A DNA stretch of 64,000 bases from Clostridiales bacterium (GTDB lineage: Bacteria; Bacillota; Clostridia; Christensenellales; Aristaeellaceae), in NCBI GenBank assembly GCA_012521895.1, contig JAAYLK010000072.1, forward strand, positions 1-64,000, in the 5' to 3' direction. The position numbers and the translations under genes are program-made. Shown here piece after piece: positions 29,833 through 45,035 of this stretch (positions within the stretch are counted from its first letter, which is position 1; each line of letters begins with the position of its first letter). Under the pieces are notes generated by a model. It made no database searches and was not told the origin of the DNA. It saw only the letters and a program-made list of their open reading frames with translations.

Positions 29833-29870
29833 ACAAATAATGCCTTAGCGAATGATTGGAGGACAGTCTG

Positions 29871-30902
29871 ATGATGATGGATGCTCTGGTCAGGCAAACC
29901 GCGGCCCCCGGATTGACCATGACGCAGGTGCCCCGCCCCCAGCCCCAGCCGGATGAGGTGCTCATCAAAATCCACAAGACAGCCATCTGTGGCACCGACC
30001 TGCACATCTACAACTGGGACGCCTGGAGCCAGGAACACATCAAGCCCCCGCAGGTGATCGGCCATGAATACGTGGGCGAAATCGCCGCGATGGGCAGCCA
30101 GGTCAAGCATTTTGAGATCGGGCAGCGGGTTTCCGGCGAAGGCCACCTGGTGTGCGGCCAGTGCCGCAATTGCCGGGCGGGGCGCGCGCAGTGGTGCAAG
30201 TACACCCAGGGCGTGGGCGTCAACCGGGACGGCGCCTTTGCCGAATACCTGGTCATCCCCGCCAGCAACTGCATCCCCATCAGCGACGACCTGGACGAGG
30301 AAGTCGTCTCCTTCTTTGACGCCTTTGGCAACGCCACCCACACCGCCTTGATGTTTGACGTGGTGGGGGAGGACGTGCTGATTACCGGTGCCGGCCCCAT
30401 CGGTGTGATGGCGGCCGCCATCTGCGCCCACAATGGCGCGCGTAACGTGGTCATCACAGATGTCAAGGATTACCGCCTGGACCTGGCCCGCAAGCTGGGC
30501 GCCACCCACGCCATCAACGTGGCCAAGGAGGACCTGGCTGCCATGCTGCCAAAGCTGAACATGGTGGAAGGCTTTGACGTGGGCTTGGAAATGTCCGGCG
30601 CCGAGCCGGCGTTTAAGCAGATGCTGTCCCTGATGCGCAACGGCGGCCAGATCGCCCTGCTGGGCCTGTTTGGCAAGAAACCGCAGTTTGACATTGACAG
30701 CTTCATCTTCAAAGGCCTGACCCTGCAAGGGATCTATGGCCGCAAGATGTATGAGACCTGGTACAAGATGGCCGCCATGGTGCAGTCCGGGCTGGACCTG
30801 CGCCCCCTGATCACCCACCGCTTCCCCTACACGCGCTTTGATGAGGCCTTCCAGATCATGAACACCGGGGAAAGCGGCAAAATCATCCTGGAATGGGCCT
30901 GA
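29871..30902 (+). CDS. tdh: L-threonine 3-dehydrogenase
   Basis: 343 residues, the usual size. This zinc-dependent medium-chain dehydrogenase oxidises L-threonine to 2-amino-3-oxobutyrate with NAD. Catalytic zinc ligands are in [13 protein letters not shown] and GHEY. Structural zinc cysteines are [15 protein letters not shown]. The NAD motif is [10 protein letters not shown]. The first of three consecutive ATG codons is chosen, since GGAGG lies eight bases before it. The kbl gene follows after 22 nt, completing the pathway to glycine and acetyl-CoA. Confidence 0.96.
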
Positions 30903-30924
30903 GGACTATGGAGGAGAAGAGAAA

Positions 30925-32115
30925 ATGAGCACGAGCAAAAAAGCCCTGGCTTTTTATGAGCAGCAGCTGGATGAAATCCGACAGGCCGGTACCTGGCGTG
31001 AGGAGCGCGTCATCACCACACCGCAAAAGAACGTGATTGACACCACCAAGACCCGCCAGGTTCTGAACCTCTGCGCCAACAACTACCTGGGACTGTCCAA
31101 TGACGCCCGCATCATCAAGGCCGCGCGCAGCGCCTACGACTCCTGGGGCTTCGGCCTGTCCAGCGTGCGCTTCATCTGCGGCACCCAGCTGATTCATAAG
31201 CAATTGGAACAGCGCCTGGCCACCTTCCTGCAGATGGATGATGTCGTGCTGTACTCCTCCTGCTTTGACGCTAACGGCGGTCTGTTTGAAACCCTGCTCA
31301 AGGAAGAGGACGCGGTGATTTCCGATGAACTCAACCACGCCTCCATCATCGACGGCGTTAGGCTTTGCAAGGCCCGCCGCCTGCGCTACAAGAACAGCGA
31401 CATGGCGGAATTGGAGCAGCACCTGAAAGACACCCAGGATTGCCGCATCCGCCTGATTGCCACCGACGGCGTCTTCAGCATGGACGGCTACCTGGCCAAG
31501 CTTGAACAGATTTGTGACCTGGCGGAAAAATATGATGCCCTGGTCATGGTGGATGACAGCCACGCCACCGGCTTCATGGGCCAGACCGGCCGCGGCACCC
31601 ACGAGGCCTGCGGCGTGATGGGCCGGGTGGACATCATCACCTCCACCTTTGGCAAGGCCCTGGGCGGGGCCTCCGGCGGCTTCACCGCCGCCCGCCAGCC
31701 CATTGCGGACCTGCTGCGCCAGCGTTCCCGCCCCTACCTGTTCTCCAACTCCGTCGCCCCCTCCATCTGTGCGGCGACCTTGAAGACGCTGGACCTGCTG
31801 GAGGCCTCCACCGGCCTGCGCGACCGCGTCCATGAAAACGCCAACTATTTCCGTGAGAAGATGACCGAAGCCGGCTTTGAACTTCTGCCGGGCAACCATC
31901 CCATCGTGCCGGTGATGCTGTATGACGCGCACAAAGCGCAGGAGATGGCCACCAGGATGCTACAGCACGACGTGTACGTCATCGCCTTCAGCTATCCCGT
32001 GGTGCCCATGGGCAAGGCCCGCATCCGCACACAGATTTCCGCCGTCCACAGCCATGAGGACTTGGACAAGGCGGTGGCCGCCTTCAAAGCTGTCCGGGAC
32101 GAGATGGCAACCTGA
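30925..32115 (+). CDS. kbl: Glycine C-acetyltransferase (2-amino-3-ketobutyrate CoA ligase)
   Basis: 396 residues. A PLP enzyme of the alpha-oxoamine synthase family that cleaves 2-amino-3-oxobutyrate with CoA to glycine and acetyl-CoA. The PLP lysine is in [13 protein letters not shown], and [19 protein letters not shown] and [11 protein letters not shown] are family motifs. GGAGGAG stands eight bases before the ATG. It is the partner of tdh in the same operon. Confidence 0.96.
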
Positions 32116-38519: not shown

Positions 38520-39086
38520 TCAGGCCTGAAGATCTGTTTCTTCAAACAGCTTCATGCCGTTGTGTTTAAAATAATACAGCAGGCTCAAAATGGCCAGCCC
38601 AACGCCCACCCACAGCAGCCACAGGTGTACCGGGTAGCCCCAGGTGTCAAACTCCGCGTGGAAAAAGCAGAGGACAAGGGCGGCCACCGTGACAAACTGA
38701 GCCACCTTGCCAAGCGGCAGGGAATACACAACGATGTGTTTCCTCAGCAACAGAAAACCGCCGATAAACATCAGCAATTCTTTCACCAGCAGGATGAGGA
38801 TGGCCGCCAGGGGTGCGATGCCCTTGATGGCCAGCATCGCCATCACCGACAGCACCATCAGCTTGTCCGCCAGGGGGTCAAACAGCTTGCCAAAGTCGGT
38901 GATCAGGTTGTATTTGCGGGCGATCCAGCCATCCAGCAGGTCCGTCAGGCTGGCAAACACAAACACATACAGGGCTTCGCGCATGAGGCCAATGTGCATC
39001 AGATAAATAAAGACGGGGATGAGCAACAGACGAAGCATCGTCAGGGCGTTGGGGACATTGAAGTTGCTTGGCTTTTCTTTGCGCAT
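38520..39086 (-). CDS. pgsA: CDP-diacylglycerol--glycerol-3-phosphate 3-phosphatidyltransferase
   Basis: 188 residues with several membrane helices. It makes phosphatidylglycerol phosphate. The CDP-alcohol phosphotransferase motif (D-x2-D-G-x2-A-R-x8-G-x3-D-x3-D) is intact: DLLDGWIAR followed by GKLFDPLAD. The ATG follows AGGAGG by five bases. First gene of a pgsA-guaB unit. Confidence 0.95.
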   Translation of the reverse strand: MRKEKPSNFNVPNALTMLRLLLIPVFIYLMHIGLMREALYVFVFASLTDLLDGWIARKYNLITDFGKLFDPLADKLMVLSVMAMLAIKGIAPLAAILILLVKELLMFIGGFLLLRKHIVVYSLPLGKVAQFVTVAALVLCFFHAEFDTWGYPVHLWLLWVGVGLAILSLLYYFKHNGMKLFEETDLQA

Positions 39087-39108
39087 TGCGTCCTCCTGAA
39101 TATGCCGC

Positions 39109-39137
39109 ATTATACCACGCGAAGTGCCCGCTCACAA
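39109..39137 (-). promoter_or_regulatory. Promoter of pgsA-guaB
   Basis: Minus strand: TTGTGA, 17 nt spacer, perfect TATAAT, 23 nt before the pgsA start. Confidence 0.65.
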
Positions 39138-39222
39138 TTGACCCTCAGGACAAAATCGTCACAAACCGGGCAAGATATGCCATGGCGCTTTCTGGTCTTT
39201 GTTTGTTTCCAGCCTTGGTTCA

Positions 39223-39251
39223 TTGACTGCCTGAAAAAGCGATGCTATCGT
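39223..39251 (+). promoter_or_regulatory. Promoter of the ATP-grasp/esterase genes
   Basis: TTGACT, 17 nt spacer, TATCGT, 60 nt before the ATP-grasp start. Divergent from the pgsA promoter. Confidence 0.6.
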
Positions 39252-39311
39252 ATGCGGCAAGATTGTGCTTTGTACACATTCTTTGACATTTTATCAACAG
39301 GAAGTGAATTA

Positions 39312-40505
39312 ATGAATTTTGTATTTATTTCACCGCATTTTCCGTCCCACTTCTGGCGTTTTTGCGCGGCCCTGAATGAAAAGGGCATCAAGGTGCTGGG
39401 CATCGCCGACGTGCCCCATGACCAGCTGCTGCCCGAACTGCAAGCCGCGCTGTCGGATTACTACCAGGTGCATTCGCTTGAGGACGGGGACGCGGTGCTG
39501 AAGGCCATCGGCTGGTTCATTCACCGCCATGGCAGGATCGACTGGATTGAGTCCAACAACGAATACTGGCTGACCCAGGACGCCTGGCTGCGCACCATGT
39601 TCAATGTCACCACCGGCCCCCAACTGGTTGTGATGGACAGCTACAAGCGCAAATCCGCGATGAAGGCGGTGTATAAGAAGGCGGGCATCATGTCCGCGCC
39701 CGCCATCATCGCGACCACCCTGGATGATGCCCTCGGCTTTATAAAAAAAGTAGGCTATCCCCTGGTCGCCAAGCCTGACACCGGCGTTGGCGCCAATGAC
39801 ACCTACCAAATCAATGATGAAGCCCAGCTGCGCGCCTTCTTTCACAAGCAGCCCCTGCGGCCCTACCTTCTGGAACAGTTCGTCAACGGAGAAATCTGTT
39901 CCTATGACGCCCTGATTGGTTCGCAGGGCCAGCCCCTGTATGAGACCGGCAACATCACCCGTGTATCCGTCATGGACGTGGTGAACGAAAAAATCGAATC
40001 CATCTACATGATCGTCCCGCAATTGGCAAAGGATTTGGAGGCGCTGGGCCGCAGGACGGTGGATGCCTTCCAGGTGAAATCCAGGCTGGTGCACTTTGAG
40101 TTTTTCCGCTTGAAGGAAGACCAGGAAGGCCTGGGCAAGAAGGGGGACCTGCTGGGGCTGGAAGTCAACATGCGCCCCTCCGGCGGTTTTACGCCTGACA
40201 TGATTAACTACGCCGGCAGCGTGGACATCCACCGCCTGTTTGCCGAGATGGTAAGCCAGGACCGGGTTCACTTGGTCGAGAACCGCAAGAAGTATTTCTG
40301 CGTCTTTGTTGGCCTCCAGGATGTGCGCGCCTATGCCCATTCCCATCAGGACTTGATTGCTGACTGGGGCCACCGCATCGTCCACCACGACCGCATGCCC
40401 GAGGCCCTCTCCGGTGCCATGGGCAACCAGATTTACCTGGCCCAGTGCCTGTCGCGTGATGAGGTGGACGCCTTTGTGGCCTACGCCTGTGAGCGCCAGC
40501 CATGA
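39312..40505 (+). CDS. ATP-grasp domain protein, uncharacterised ligase
   Basis: 397 residues. A pre-ATP-grasp segment (MNFVFISPHFP to about 110) is followed by an ATP-grasp fold: GYPLVAKPDTGVGA, the hinge YLLEQFVNGEICSYD and the metal-binding EVNMRPSGGFTPD. ATP-grasp enzymes join a carboxylate to an amine or thiol through an acyl phosphate. The substrate is unknown. The ATG follows GGAAG by seven bases; upstream frame is unsupported. The next gene, an esterase, overlaps it by four bases, so the two should act together. Confidence 0.85.
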   Translation: MNFVFISPHFPSHFWRFCAALNEKGIKVLGIADVPHDQLLPELQAALSDYYQVHSLEDGDAVLKAIGWFIHRHGRIDWIESNNEYWLTQDAWLRTMFNVTTGPQLVVMDSYKRKSAMKAVYKKAGIMSAPAIIATTLDDALGFIKKVGYPLVAKPDTGVGANDTYQINDEAQLRAFFHKQPLRPYLLEQFVNGEICSYDALIGSQGQPLYETGNITRVSVMDVVNEKIESIYMIVPQLAKDLEALGRRTVDAFQVKSRLVHFEFFRLKEDQEGLGKKGDLLGLEVNMRPSGGFTPDMINYAGSVDIHRLFAEMVSQDRVHLVENRKKYFCVFVGLQDVRAYAHSHQDLIADWGHRIVHHDRMPEALSGAMGNQIYLAQCLSRDEVDAFVAYACERQP

Positions 40506-41242
40506 TGCGGCGGGAGAGCGGCTTTTACAGCCACATTCTCAACCAGGAATTAAGCACGGTGATGTATGGCCACACCGGCCAGCCCTGCCTGGTGTTCCCC
40601 TCTCAAAACGGTAACAGCCGGGATTTTGAGGGCTTTGGCATGGTGGAGGTGTGCAGGCCCTGGATTGAGCAGGGCAAGTTGCGCCTGTATTGTGTGGACA
40701 GCGTGGACGAGCAGACCTGGTCGGCCTACCACCTGCCCCCGGACGGCAGGATGCGCCGTCACGAAGCCTGGTTTCACCACCTGATGGACGAATACGTGCC
40801 CTTCATTTACCGTGACAGCGGCTTTGAGGAGCGGCTGATGACCCTGGGCTGCAGCCTGGGCGCCTTCCACGCGGCCAACGCCCTCTTCCGCCGCCCGGAC
40901 CTCTTTGGCAGCGTCATCGCCCTGTCCGGCGCTTATGACGCGCGCTGGCTGCTGATGGACTACATGGATGAGCTGGTCTACCTGAATTCACCCTTGGACA
41001 GCATCCGCGGCATGGACGCCAACCATCCCTATGTGCAGCTGTACAATGACAGCCGCATTATCCTCTGCTGCGGCCAGGGCGCCTGGGAGGATGAGATGCT
41101 GCGCTCCGTCCGCTTGTTGGAGCAGGCCATGCGGGAAAAGGGCATCCATCCCTGGGTGGACATCTGGGGCCAGGATGTCAACCACGACTGGGACTGGTGG
41201 AAAAAGCAGCTGGCCTATTTTCTTGGGAAATTGTTTGACTGA
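40502..41242 (+). CDS. Esterase-fold protein coupled to the ATP-grasp gene
   Basis: 246 residues. An alpha/beta hydrolase of the putative esterase (esterase D-like) type without signal peptide. The nucleophile elbow is GCSLGAFHA. The base is the His in DVNHDWDWWKKQ, and Asp residues nearby could complete the triad. YGHTGQPCLVFPSQNG near the N-terminus forms the oxyanion strand. Its ATG overlaps the ATP-grasp stop. It may release or transfer the ligase product, but no substrate is known. Confidence 0.82.
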   Translation: MMRRESGFYSHILNQELSTVMYGHTGQPCLVFPSQNGNSRDFEGFGMVEVCRPWIEQGKLRLYCVDSVDEQTWSAYHLPPDGRMRRHEAWFHHLMDEYVPFIYRDSGFEERLMTLGCSLGAFHAANALFRRPDLFGSVIALSGAYDARWLLMDYMDELVYLNSPLDSIRGMDANHPYVQLYNDSRIILCCGQGAWEDEMLRSVRLLEQAMREKGIHPWVDIWGQDVNHDWDWWKKQLAYFLGKLFD

Positions 41243-41262
41243 TTAAAGCTTTGGAGGGTCGT

Positions 41263-41637
41263 ATGGCGCGATTAAAAGGGTTTTTGATCATCCTCTTGTG
41301 CAACCTGGCGGGCAACCTGGTCATCACCCTGATCGGCCTGCCCTTTCCGGGCTCGGTGCTGGGCATGCTGCTCCTGCTGGGCTTGCTCCTTGGCCGCGCG
41401 GTGAAGCTGGAAACGGTCGAATCCACCGCCAACCTGCTCATCAGCCTGATGATGCTGTTCATTTTGCCGGGTGCGGTCAACATGATGAACGTGTTTGACA
41501 AGTTCACCGGCATCATCGTTCAGCTGCTGGTCATCGCCACCGCAGCCTCGGTGCTGACTTTGATTTCCTCCGCCCTGGTGGCGGACAAGCTGGCGCTGCT
41601 TGTAAACCGCGACAAGAAAACGGAGGATGCAGTATGA
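41263..41637 (+). CDS. lrgA: LrgA/CidA family holin-like protein
   Basis: 124 residues, four hydrophobic helices, with LIGLPFPGSVLGMLLLLGLL typical of the CidA/LrgA family. Family members were described as holin-like or antiholin-like and later linked to export of pyruvate or other overflow metabolites. GGAGG lies five bases before the ATG. The stop overlaps lrgB (ATGA). Confidence 0.9.
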   Translation: MARLKGFLIILLCNLAGNLVITLIGLPFPGSVLGMLLLLGLLLGRAVKLETVESTANLLISLMMLFILPGAVNMMNVFDKFTGIIVQLLVIATAASVLTLISSALVADKLALLVNRDKKTEDAV

Positions 41638-42335
41638 GCTGGGCAGATGTCACCAACAACCCCTTGTTTGGCTTCACCCTCACGGTGTTGACCATGTTCT
41701 TGTTTTCTACCTTGCTGCACCGCGCCAAGACGCCACTGCTCAACCCTTTTCTGTTCTCCGCCGCGGCCATCATCATCTTTCTGCTGGTGACCAAGACGCC
41801 CTACGCCCACTATGAAAAAGGCGCGTCCATCCTGGCCTTCTTCATGGGGCCCACCATCGTGGCCCTGGCGGTCCCCCTGTACAAACAAATTGATAAATTG
41901 AAGGCCAATGCCTTGCCGGTGCTGGCGGGTATCGCCGTCGGCGTTCTGGTGTCCCTGGTCAGTGGGATTGGCTTGTCGCTGCTGTTTGGTTTGAGCCGTG
42001 AGATGGCGGTGTCCATGGCGCCCAAGGGGGCGACCAGCGCCATCTCCATGAACCTGGCCCAGACCTTTGGCGGGGACCCGGCTTTGACCGTGGCCTTTGT
42101 CAACCTCACCGGCATCACCGGCTACATGCTGGGCACCAAGGTGTTTTCCCTGCTGCGTGTCAAAAGCCCGGTGGCCAAGGGCATTGCCCTGGGTACCACG
42201 GCGCATGCCATGGGCACCAAGCTGGCCTTTGACCTGGGGGAGGAGGAAGGCGCAATGAGCTCCCTGGCCATTGGCCTGGCCGGGGTATTCACGTCCCTGC
42301 TGATGCCGCTGGCCATGGGCTTGTTCGGTTTGTGA
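41634..42335 (+). CDS. lrgB: LrgB/CidB family membrane protein
   Basis: 233 residues, hydrophobic throughout. FMGPTIVALAVPLYKQ, APKGATSAISM and GTTAHAMGTKLAF are family signatures. It works with LrgA in murein-hydrolase control or metabolite export. No LytSR regulator pair is visible in the window. The gene ends at a strong bidirectional terminator. Confidence 0.94.
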   Translation: MSWADVTNNPLFGFTLTVLTMFLFSTLLHRAKTPLLNPFLFSAAAIIIFLLVTKTPYAHYEKGASILAFFMGPTIVALAVPLYKQIDKLKANALPVLAGIAVGVLVSLVSGIGLSLLFGLSREMAVSMAPKGATSAISMNLAQTFGGDPALTVAFVNLTGITGYMLGTKVFSLLRVKSPVAKGIALGTTAHAMGTKLAFDLGEEEGAMSSLAIGLAGVFTSLLMPLAMGLFGL

Positions 42336-42348
42336 TTTCTTAGAAGGA

Positions 42349-42394
42349 CAAAAATGCCGGGCGGTGATTGCTTTCACTGCCCGGCATTGTGTTT
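42349..42394. terminator. Bidirectional terminator between lrgB and clpB
   Basis: A 14 bp stem (AATGCCGGGCGGTG with CACTGCCCGGCATT, one G-T pair) and an 8 nt loop. T-rich tracts follow on both strands, TTTT to the right and TTTTT on the minus strand. Confidence 0.9.
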
Positions 42395-42401
42395 TGTCGT
42401 T

Positions 42402-45035
42402 TTAGTTGACCGTGCCGCTGAACTCCTGCGCCGCGGACACCGTGATTTTGAAGCTGTCATTGTCATCCGCTTCCACCACCAGGGTGTCACCGGGCTTGGC
42501 CAGGCCTTCAATCAAGGCGCGGGCGATGCGGGTCTCAATCTGGCTTTGAATCAGCCGCTTCATGGGCCTTGCGCCATAGACCGGGTCATAGCCCTGGGCC
42601 ATCAGGCGTTCGCCGGCGTCGGTGCTAAGCACCAATCCAAGCTGCTTGTCTGCCAGGCGCTCGCGCAGGCGGTTGATTTGCAGAGCGATAATCTGCTCAA
42701 TCTGATCCCGGGTGAGCGGGGTAAAGAAGACCGTCTCGTCGATGCGGTTTAGGAACTCCGGCCGGAAGTGCCCGCGCAGCAAGGTTCTGACCTGCTCACG
42801 CGTGTGCTCGTCCAGCGCGCCTTCCTCGGAGATGCCTTCCAGAATCAGGGAGGAGCCCAGGTTGCTGGTCATGATGAGGATGGTGTTCTTGAAGTCCACC
42901 GTGCGACCCTGGCTGTCGGTCACCCGGCCGTCATCCAGAATCTGCAGCAGTACATTGAAGACATCCGGGTGTGCTTTTTCCAACTCGTCAAACAGGATGA
43001 CGGAGTAGGGCTTCCTGCGCACGGCCTCAGTCAGCTGGCCGCCTTCTTCATAGCCCACGTAGCCAGGAGGGGCGCCGATTAAGCGGGAGACGGAGAACTT
43101 CTCCATGTACTCGCTCATGTCAATACGCACCAGCATTTTTTCATCATCAAACAGGTTCTGCGCCAGGGCTTTGGCCAGCTCCGTTTTGCCCACGCCCGTG
43201 GGGCCTAAGAAGAGGAAAGAGCCAATCGGGCGCGCTTCATCGGAGATGCCCGCGCGGGAGCGCAGGATGGCGTCCGAAATCAGCTGGATGGCCTCATCCT
43301 GGCCGATGACCCGCTCATGCAGGGTATTAGGCAGGCTCAGCAGCTTCTCACGGTCGCTCTCCAGCAGTTTGCTCACCGGGATGCCGGTCCAGCGGCCCAC
43401 GATGCGGGCGATTTCGTCTTCAGTGACCTTGTCGCGCAGGTAGATGGCCTTGCTGTGCTCGCTGTCGCGCTCCTCCTGCTTTGCCAGTTCCTGCTGCAAG
43501 CGGGGTAGGTCGCCGTATTTCAGTTGGGCGGCGGTGTTCAGGTCATAGCCGCGCTCGGCCTGGGCGATTTTGGCATTGACCTGTTCAATCTCCTCGCGCA
43601 GTTTCCGGGTTTTGCCGATGTCGGTTTTCTCGTTTTCCCATTTGGCGGTCATCTGGGCATACTGCTCGCGCAGCTGCGCCAACTCCTCTGATAAGGCCTG
43701 CAGCCTGCCTTGGGACAGGCGGTCGCTCTCTTTCTTAAGGGCCGCTTCCTCAATCTCCAACTGCATGATCTTGCGCCGCACCTCGTCCAGTTCCTGGGGC
43801 ATGGAGTCCATCTCCGTGCGGATCATGGCGCAGGCCTCGTCCACCAGGTCAATGGCCTTGTCCGGCAGAAAGCGGTCGGAGATGTAACGGTGGGAGAGGG
43901 TGGCGGCGGCAATCAGCGCGCCGTCCTGGATTTTGACGCCGTGGAAGACCTCATACCGCTCCTGCAAGCCGCGCAGGATGGAGATGGTGTCCTCCACCGT
44001 TGGCTCTTCCACCAGCACTGGCTGGAAGCGGCGCTCCAGGGCGGCGTCTTTTTCAATGTGCAGCCGATATTCATTGAGCGTGGTGGCGCCGATGCAGTGC
44101 AGTTCACCCCGGGCCAGCATGGGTTTTAACAGGTTGCCAGCGTCCATGGCACCCTCGGCCTTGCCGGCGCCCACGATGGTGTGCAGCTCGTCAATGAACA
44201 GCAAAATCTGCCCGTCGCTCTGCTTAACCTCGGCCAGCACGGCTTTCAAGCGCTCCTCAAATTCACCGCGGAACTTGGCGCCCGCGATGAGGGCGCCCAT
44301 GTCCAGGGAAAAGATGCTGCGTTTTTTCAGGTTGTCCGGCACGTCGCCGCGCACGATGCGCTGGGCCAGGCCTTCGGCGATGGCGGTTTTGCCCACGCCG
44401 GGCTCGCCAATCAGCACCGGGTTGTTCTTGGTCTTGCGGCTCAAGATGCGGATGACATCACGGATTTCGCTGTCACGCCCGATGACCGGGTCCAGCTTCT
44501 GGTTGCGCGCCAGCAGGGTCAGGTCGCTGCCGTACTTGGCCAACGCGTCATAGCTGTCCTCGGGCGTGTCGCTGGTGACCCGGGCCGCGCCGCGCACCTG
44601 GGACAGGGCTTTTAAGAAGTCATCTTCCTTGATGGCAAAGCGCGTAAACAGGGCGGCCATGCCGCGGTCCGCCGCGCGCAGCAGCCCTAAAAAGAGGTGC
44701 TCAACAGAGATGTACTCATCCTTCATCTGCTCCGCGGCGTCGTTGGCTTCGCGCAGGGCCTTGTCCATCTCCTGGGAGACATAGGTCTTGCCTTCCTCGC
44801 GCGCGCTGGAACGCACCCTGGGCAAGCGTTCCACCTCGTCCACGGCGTTTTGCTTCAGCCCCTGCGCGTTCTTGCCCATGCGGGAAAGCAGCTGGGGGAT
44901 GAGGCTGTTGTCGTCTTCCAGCAGCGCTGAGAGCAAGTGGGCCTGCTCCAGGGTCTGGTTGGTGTACTCACCCGCCAGGCGCTGGGCGTCCTGGATGGCT
45001 TCCATGCTCTTTTGTGTATATCTGTTTTGGTTCAT
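42402..45035 (-). CDS. clpB: ATP-dependent disaggregase ClpB
   Basis: 877 residues. ClpB resolves protein aggregates with the DnaK system. The N domain (1-150) with two Clp_N repeats, first AAA+ module with GEPGVGKT (210-217), a coiled-coil middle domain (about 410-530) and a second AAA+ module with GPTGVGKT are all present. The C-terminus lacks the ClpP-docking loop expected of ClpA/ClpX. GAGG precedes the ATG. It is monocistronic, with a CtsR-like box next to its promoter. Confidence 0.96.

Follow-up and report, generated by a model that had tools for sequence, protein, structure and literature searches.

A recurrent bacterial gene pair encoding an L-amino-acid-ligase-like ATP-grasp enzyme and a PF00756 esterase

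Introduction

ATP-grasp enzymes usually form amides, and enzymes of the PF00756 family usually cut esters; the antigen 85 enzymes, which are structurally related to the esterase described here, move an acyl group to a new acceptor. Two kinds of described system come closest to the locus that we analyse below. The first is the L-amino acid ligases (RizA, BL00235 and BacD/YwfE), ATP-grasp enzymes that, as set out in PMC6920838, link unprotected amino acids into dipeptides by way of acyl phosphates. The second is the amidoligase clusters with GCS2, circularly permuted (CP) ATP-grasp and RimK-like ligases, which were the subject of a survey by Iyer et al. 2009, as cited in PMC3597751 and PMC8939145.

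The locus lies in a stretch of 64,000 nucleotides from a Clostridiales bacterium (hereafter the window, meaning the whole stretch that was analysed), and consists of an ATP-grasp ligase gene followed by a PF00756 esterase gene. The ligase matches RizA, BL00235 and BacD along the whole chain, at an identity of just 13-19%; unlike them it is coupled to an esterase, and dipeptide synthesis by it is, by analogy, predicted at most. The esterase has its fold, Ser and His in common with the PF00756/CE1 esterases (5vol, S-formylglutathione hydrolase, antigen 85) and differs from these examples in being paired with an ATP-grasp enzyme. Sister-clade esterases of its family are located inside amidoligase clusters of the kind described above, whereas in the window module the only ligase is of a different type, and the relation to those clusters runs through the esterase clade only. 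The parts of the module are members of known superfamilies; together they would form an amide-making ligase module served by its own esterase. We found no description of such a ligase-esterase module in the open-licence literature searched, which leaves out most subscription papers, a result that is not proof of its being unpublished.

Results

Organisation of the locus

The locus comprises the following features (window positions).

39111-39311: intergenic stretch of 201 bases between a divergent pgsA-like gene and the ATP-grasp gene, where any promoter is expected
39312-40505, + strand: ATP-grasp ligase gene P0001 (397 aa), L-amino-acid-ligase-like, intact ORF
40502-41242, + strand: PF00756 serine esterase gene P0002 (246 aa), intact ORF, no signal peptide by hydropathy check
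41263-41637, + strand: lrgA/cidA-like membrane protein gene (PF03788, E 2.1e-19)
41634-42335, + strand: lrgB/cidB-like membrane protein gene (PF04172, E 2.6e-71)
42353-42388, + strand: terminator-like stem of 15 pairs, 3' of lrgB and facing a convergent clpB-like gene

As an earlier note on this DNA had stated, the ligase and esterase ORFs, both on the + strand of the window, overlap by four bases (ATGA, at 40502). The note had also given the pair a promoter of its own, a claim that did not rise above chance in our scan of positions 38900-42700. The sole + strand promoter-like match upstream of the ligase lies at 39223-39251 (9/12), and promoter-like sites in the scanned region numbered 2, against 1.4 expected in shuffles, so that such matches are no better than chance. 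The 201 bases that separate the ligase gene from the pgsA-like gene leave room for a promoter but do not establish one. The further claim, that no recognisable biosynthetic partner lies next to the pair, was right in that no biosynthetic gene adjoins it, but had missed lrgA and lrgB, the first of which starts 20 bases after the end of the esterase gene on the same strand. No + strand terminator-like site was found in the scan before 42353. Terminator-like sites overall were no more frequent than in shuffles (3 observed, 4.3 in shuffles), though the stem at 42353-42388 is long. We consider that lrgAB is probably carried on the same transcript as the ligase-esterase pair.

Seven of the eight same-genus genomes that carry the pair (that of the window included) have lrgAB 3' of it; among 80 wider loci, lrgAB is beside the pair in just four, all from close relatives. 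According to parts of PMC5626966, PMC6790026 and PMC12632267, LrgAB-type proteins function in pyruvate transport in Bacillus subtilis, Streptococcus mutans and Staphylococcus aureus. Since these proteins carry pyruvate elsewhere, a small acid may be involved in the window's genus, where LrgAB may move a small acid that is used or made by the module.

The ligase and the esterase

In profile searches the ligase had no family match above a curated cut-off; its best Pfam match was PF13535 (E 6.7e-5, under the Pfam cut-off). Structure comparison of its AlphaFold2 model (pLDDT 93.0), however, clearly gave an ATP-grasp fold. The closest structures in VIA-align were BL00235 (3vot_B; Z 31.1, rmsd 3.5, 356 residues) and RizA (4wd3_A; Z 31.0, rmsd 4.3, 363 residues), and RizA was also ranked first by Foldseek and by profile search (profile E 4.9e-19). 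PurK was the next best, about 3 Z units behind (Z 27.7), and YwfE (BacD; 3vmm, 3wnz) scored Z 26.9. The modelled ligase is closest by fold to the L-amino-acid ligases, in a search that is blind to the difference between an amino acid and another carboxylate.

Eight residues of the ligase (K114, K154, E188, H261, E263, E284, N286 and R288) are invariant in 36 of 36 aligned sequences, an alignment from which L107, with an internal stop, was left out. All of them except H261 we take, by analogy, to be nucleotide/metal-site residues. In the alignment RizA has Ala at the position of the family's invariant Asn286. None of the 36 ATP-grasp proteins has a signal-like N-terminus in a hydropathy check.

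The esterase passes the PF00756 cut-off (29.4 bits, cut-off 22); both enzyme identities proposed in the earlier note stand, that of the ligase by fold and that of the esterase by family profile. Its AlphaFold2 model (pLDDT 96.8) aligned with feruloyl esterase 5vol at a VIA-align Z of 24.2 and with CE1-type enzymes generally at Z of about 21-24, with no clear favourite and at 9-19% identity; feruloyl esterases and S-formylglutathione hydrolases are among the nearest folds. The GCSLGAF motif and the C-terminal catalytic His, which had been pointed out before, hold up: the motif contains Ser118, the His is His228, and both are invariant, as is Glu196, in 40 of 40 aligned sequences. Ser118 and His228 are also kept in all 27 rows of the sister or L143 type; the sister rows mostly carry Asp at the Glu196 position; the assignment of Glu196 as the catalytic acid, made from the alignment, is for this reason only probable. 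A signal-like N-terminus was seen in none of the 40 esterase homologues by hydropathy check, and the esterase, like the ligase-esterase module as a whole, is probably cytosolic.

Linkage of the two genes

A scan of genome contigs with the esterase returned 116 confirmed relatives, the best 80 of which were kept. At 76 of these best 80 loci an ATP-grasp gene lay in the same fetched stretch as the esterase, in 75 cases on the same strand; the ligase came first in 67 and the esterase in 8, one locus had the genes on opposite strands, and four were without an ATP-grasp gene in the stretch. The four are L025, where the contig is cut, L030 and L070, whose genomes carry an ATP-grasp gene on another contig, and L062. 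Over both locus sets, the median gap was 12 bases in 75 ligase-first loci, 17 of which overlap, and 27 bases in 21 esterase-first loci, counts that include duplicates, as some loci with G handles are probably from the same genomes as scan loci (for example, L083/L003). Gene calling by script was crude, with antisense frames sometimes picked in GC-rich loci.

Carriers of the pair belong to at least five phyla and include bacteria of gut, soil and sediment. In the esterase tree, the labels of pair-bearing loci are Bacillota, Chloroflexota, Thermodesulfobacteriota and Myxococcota. Annotated copies of the pair exist on plasmids of Peptoclostridium and Pararhizobium, and tblastn found the pair in Sinorhizobium as well.

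Clustering of neighbours of at least 70 aa around the pair loci revealed no recurrent third gene beyond close relatives. The neighbour clusters were lineage-specific only, for example hrcA-grpE-dnaK-dnaJ in Anaerovoracaceae-type loci, and the sole recurrent addition to the pair was a second PF00756 esterase, present in about 20 loci. Both types of esterase adjoin the ATP-grasp gene in about 15 of the loci. Two ATP-grasp paralogues flank a single esterase in L034, L046, L057, L069 and others (Thomasclavelia and kin). In Romboutsia timonensis (L037:7128-7808) a peptidase S51 gene lies 3' of the ATP-grasp gene and PotABCD-like transporter genes lie upstream; peptidase S51 is the family to which cyanophycinase and dipeptidase E belong.

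Co-occurrence, exceptions and swapped esterases

Among 100 relatives (own genome included), searched at E < 1e-34 for the ATP-grasp and E < 1e-60 for the esterase, the ATP-grasp gene was present in 28 and the esterase gene in 26, all within those 28. The same ten of 299 Bacillota genomes (own included) hold both genes, which are adjacent in 10/10 and come from five families. In 198 genomes from the phylum to which G108 belongs (Desulfovibrionaceae type), nine carry the ATP-grasp and seven the esterase, all seven within the nine and with the genes adjacent. The genomes behind these counts are related and not independent, so no p-value is attached to them.

The exceptions concern both linkage and the identity of the esterase. 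G034, G057 and G107 keep both genes, yet unlinked, and far apart in G034 and G057. In G072, a relative without a P0002-type esterase, another PF00756 esterase adjoins the ATP-grasp gene; in G023, a relative with the ATP-grasp, no PF00756 esterase was found. The set from G108's phylum offers the same two cases: in G739 another PF00756 esterase overlaps the ATP-grasp gene, and in G722, where the ATP-grasp is present, no PF00756 esterase was found. Extending the count to the class of G739, the ATP-grasp gene occurs in 7 of 277 genomes, with a different PF00756 esterase adjacent in 7/7. Of the three ATP-grasp copies in G016, one lacks any esterase nearby, and a copy on a Massilia plasmid has aminotransferase and methyltransferase genes in place of the esterase. 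In the ATP-grasp tree the esterase label switches several times. Since other PF00756 esterases usually replace the missing one (in every genome of one class that has the ligase), the window-type ATP-grasp is almost always accompanied by a PF00756 hydrolase, and the identity of that hydrolase can change.

The coupling of the two genes that the earlier note had proposed is thus strongly supported by the recurrence of the pair (76 of the best 80 of 116 relatives), reversals of gene order, unlinked co-occurrence and esterase swapping. Because the pair recurs across at least five phyla, it is very likely that the two enzymes work together. Homologues living apart with known and unrelated functions, which the note had raised as an argument against coupling, did not appear: separate occurrence of ligase or esterase was rare in the genomes compared, and among the homologues we found none with a known function.

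Sister esterases in Chloroflexota

Among 151 Chloroflexota genomes, 34 carry an esterase of the wider family, and just two of these (G100 and G217) have a close ATP-grasp partner. Setting aside these two and two genomes of the L143 type leaves 30 sister-clade genomes, from which 23 loci were fetched. RimK-like and CP ATP-grasp genes were both present in 11 of the 23, with GCS2 too in nine; the fetched stretch of the remaining 12 held none of the three. All 12 genomes with such a lone sister esterase, several of which are near-copies, nevertheless carry a RimK-like ligase elsewhere. A RimK-like ligase was present in 15 of 15 sister-esterase genomes tested, versus 2 of 10 without the esterase. 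The operon of sister esterase, RimK-like, CP_ATPgrasp_2 and GCS2 genes is a recurrent multi-ligase amide-making cluster. Operons that combine the sister esterase with RimK-like ATP-grasp, CP_ATPgrasp_2 and GCS2 (YbdK-like) genes are seen in Chloroflexota at L146:6754-11836, L153, L154, L157, L162, L168 and L170-L172. Among the neighbouring ORFs of the window, read by eye, no GCS2 or CP-ATP-grasp gene was seen adjoining the pair.

G240 (L143:3201-13409) and G167 (L144:1-6462) have three diverged ATP-grasp genes together with an enterochelin-esterase-like gene and a P0002-like esterase. The L143 stretch of G240 additionally holds GCS2 and RimK-like genes, and neither Pfam nor NCBIfam gave a match for L143:10453-11463. 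In a quick tree the paired esterases group as a single clade (SH-aLRT 96), whose closest neighbour is the G167/G240 type, followed by one GCS2-operon group; this tree and the equally quick one of the ATP-grasp proteins, where some branches are long, carry SH-aLRT support only. The tree rows were thinned by identity, some outgroup N-termini are cut, and stops are written X.

Discussion

We propose, with a probability of roughly 0.5, that the two genes encode a dedicated ligase-hydrolase module in which a small amide, made by the ligase via an acyl phosphate, is afterwards trimmed or transferred by the esterase, the product and the order of the steps being what we infer. The earlier note had suggested that the two enzymes could make and release a small conjugate, which likewise stands as a hypothesis. 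The substrate of the ATP-grasp enzyme would be a small carboxylate, probably an amino acid or something like it; once activated as an acyl phosphate, it would be joined to an amine to give a small amide or dipeptide-like conjugate. The esterase would act second on this conjugate, either deprotecting one building block by ester cleavage or, by analogy with antigen 85, moving an acyl group to a new acceptor. We place the esterase downstream because it is hardly ever found without the ligase, whereas the ligase is sometimes found without the esterase, an argument from small and phylogenetically related numbers. Tentatively, a broader picture may be drawn, of a two-enzyme pathway in at least five phyla: an L-amino-acid-ligase-like ATP-grasp would make the conjugate, and a near-obligatory, interchangeable PF00756 hydrolase/transacylase would complete it, the esterase lineage possibly having come from multi-ligase amide operons and later served a single ligase.

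The near-strict co-occurrence of the two genes points to a small metabolite without a name in the literature searched. The module is short enough to be expressed whole, so that its activity can be tested directly, and comparisons are at hand in the swapped esterases and in the sister operons with several ligases.

The opposite order of action would mean salvage or detoxification: the esterase would come first and release a carboxylic acid from an ester that is imported or foreign, after which the ATP-grasp enzyme would couple the acid with an amine or amino acid so that it can be either used or disposed of. We regard this as unlikely. The presence of feruloyl esterases and S-formylglutathione hydrolases among the esterase's nearest folds agrees with such a role, but CE1-like folds are common to enzymes of very different roles. 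Both proteins look cytosolic and the pair is accessory and patchy among genomes, as this explanation would have it; the ligase without the esterase is, however, commoner than the reverse, which fits better with the ligase acting first.

It is quite unlikely, in our judgement, that the enzymes are antagonists in reversible storage or modification, the ATP-grasp joining and the hydrolase undoing the same bond (ester or depsipeptide). Near-strict co-occurrence with interchangeable hydrolases would be consistent with such a pair, as would the second ATP-grasp or second esterase that often flanks it and the peptidase S51 gene that adjoins it in Romboutsia. The usual chemistry of the two families, amide formation by ATP-grasp enzymes and ester cleavage by PF00756 enzymes, argues against a shared bond, and without regulation it would be futile to co-transcribe synthesis and cleavage.

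Polyamine conjugation, with putrescine, agmatine or a relative as the amine partner, has a small chance of being correct. It is suggested by four of seven genomes of one class (L183:4901-8811, L195, L196 and L197), in which genes resembling those for agmatine deiminase and N-carbamoylputrescine amidase immediately precede the ATP-grasp gene and a different PF00756 esterase gene, and by Pot-type transporter genes near the pair in Romboutsia and Anaerovoracaceae-type loci. The deiminase-like and amidase-like proteins both fall under the NCBIfam equivalog cut-offs, however, and the four genomes are of one lineage; tblastn of the other collected loci gave just one weak amidase-like match, and no polyamine-type gene adjoins the pair in the window. 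Graspetide-like modification of a ribosomal precursor peptide is highly improbable: ATP-grasp and alpha/beta hydrolase genes can be part of graspetide loci, according to PMC8939145, but no neighbour of at least 70 aa recurs with the pair beyond close relatives, and the ligase fold is of the L-amino-acid-ligase type.

Two minor observations concern other genes. In three genomes of a single lineage (L187:4129-6675, L188 and L190) the pair has an aminopeptidase N gene beside it; as a common housekeeping gene, this was set aside as a partner. Elsewhere in the window, at 29856-32115, two genes in tandem resemble, by eye, those for threonine dehydrogenase and glycine C-acetyltransferase.
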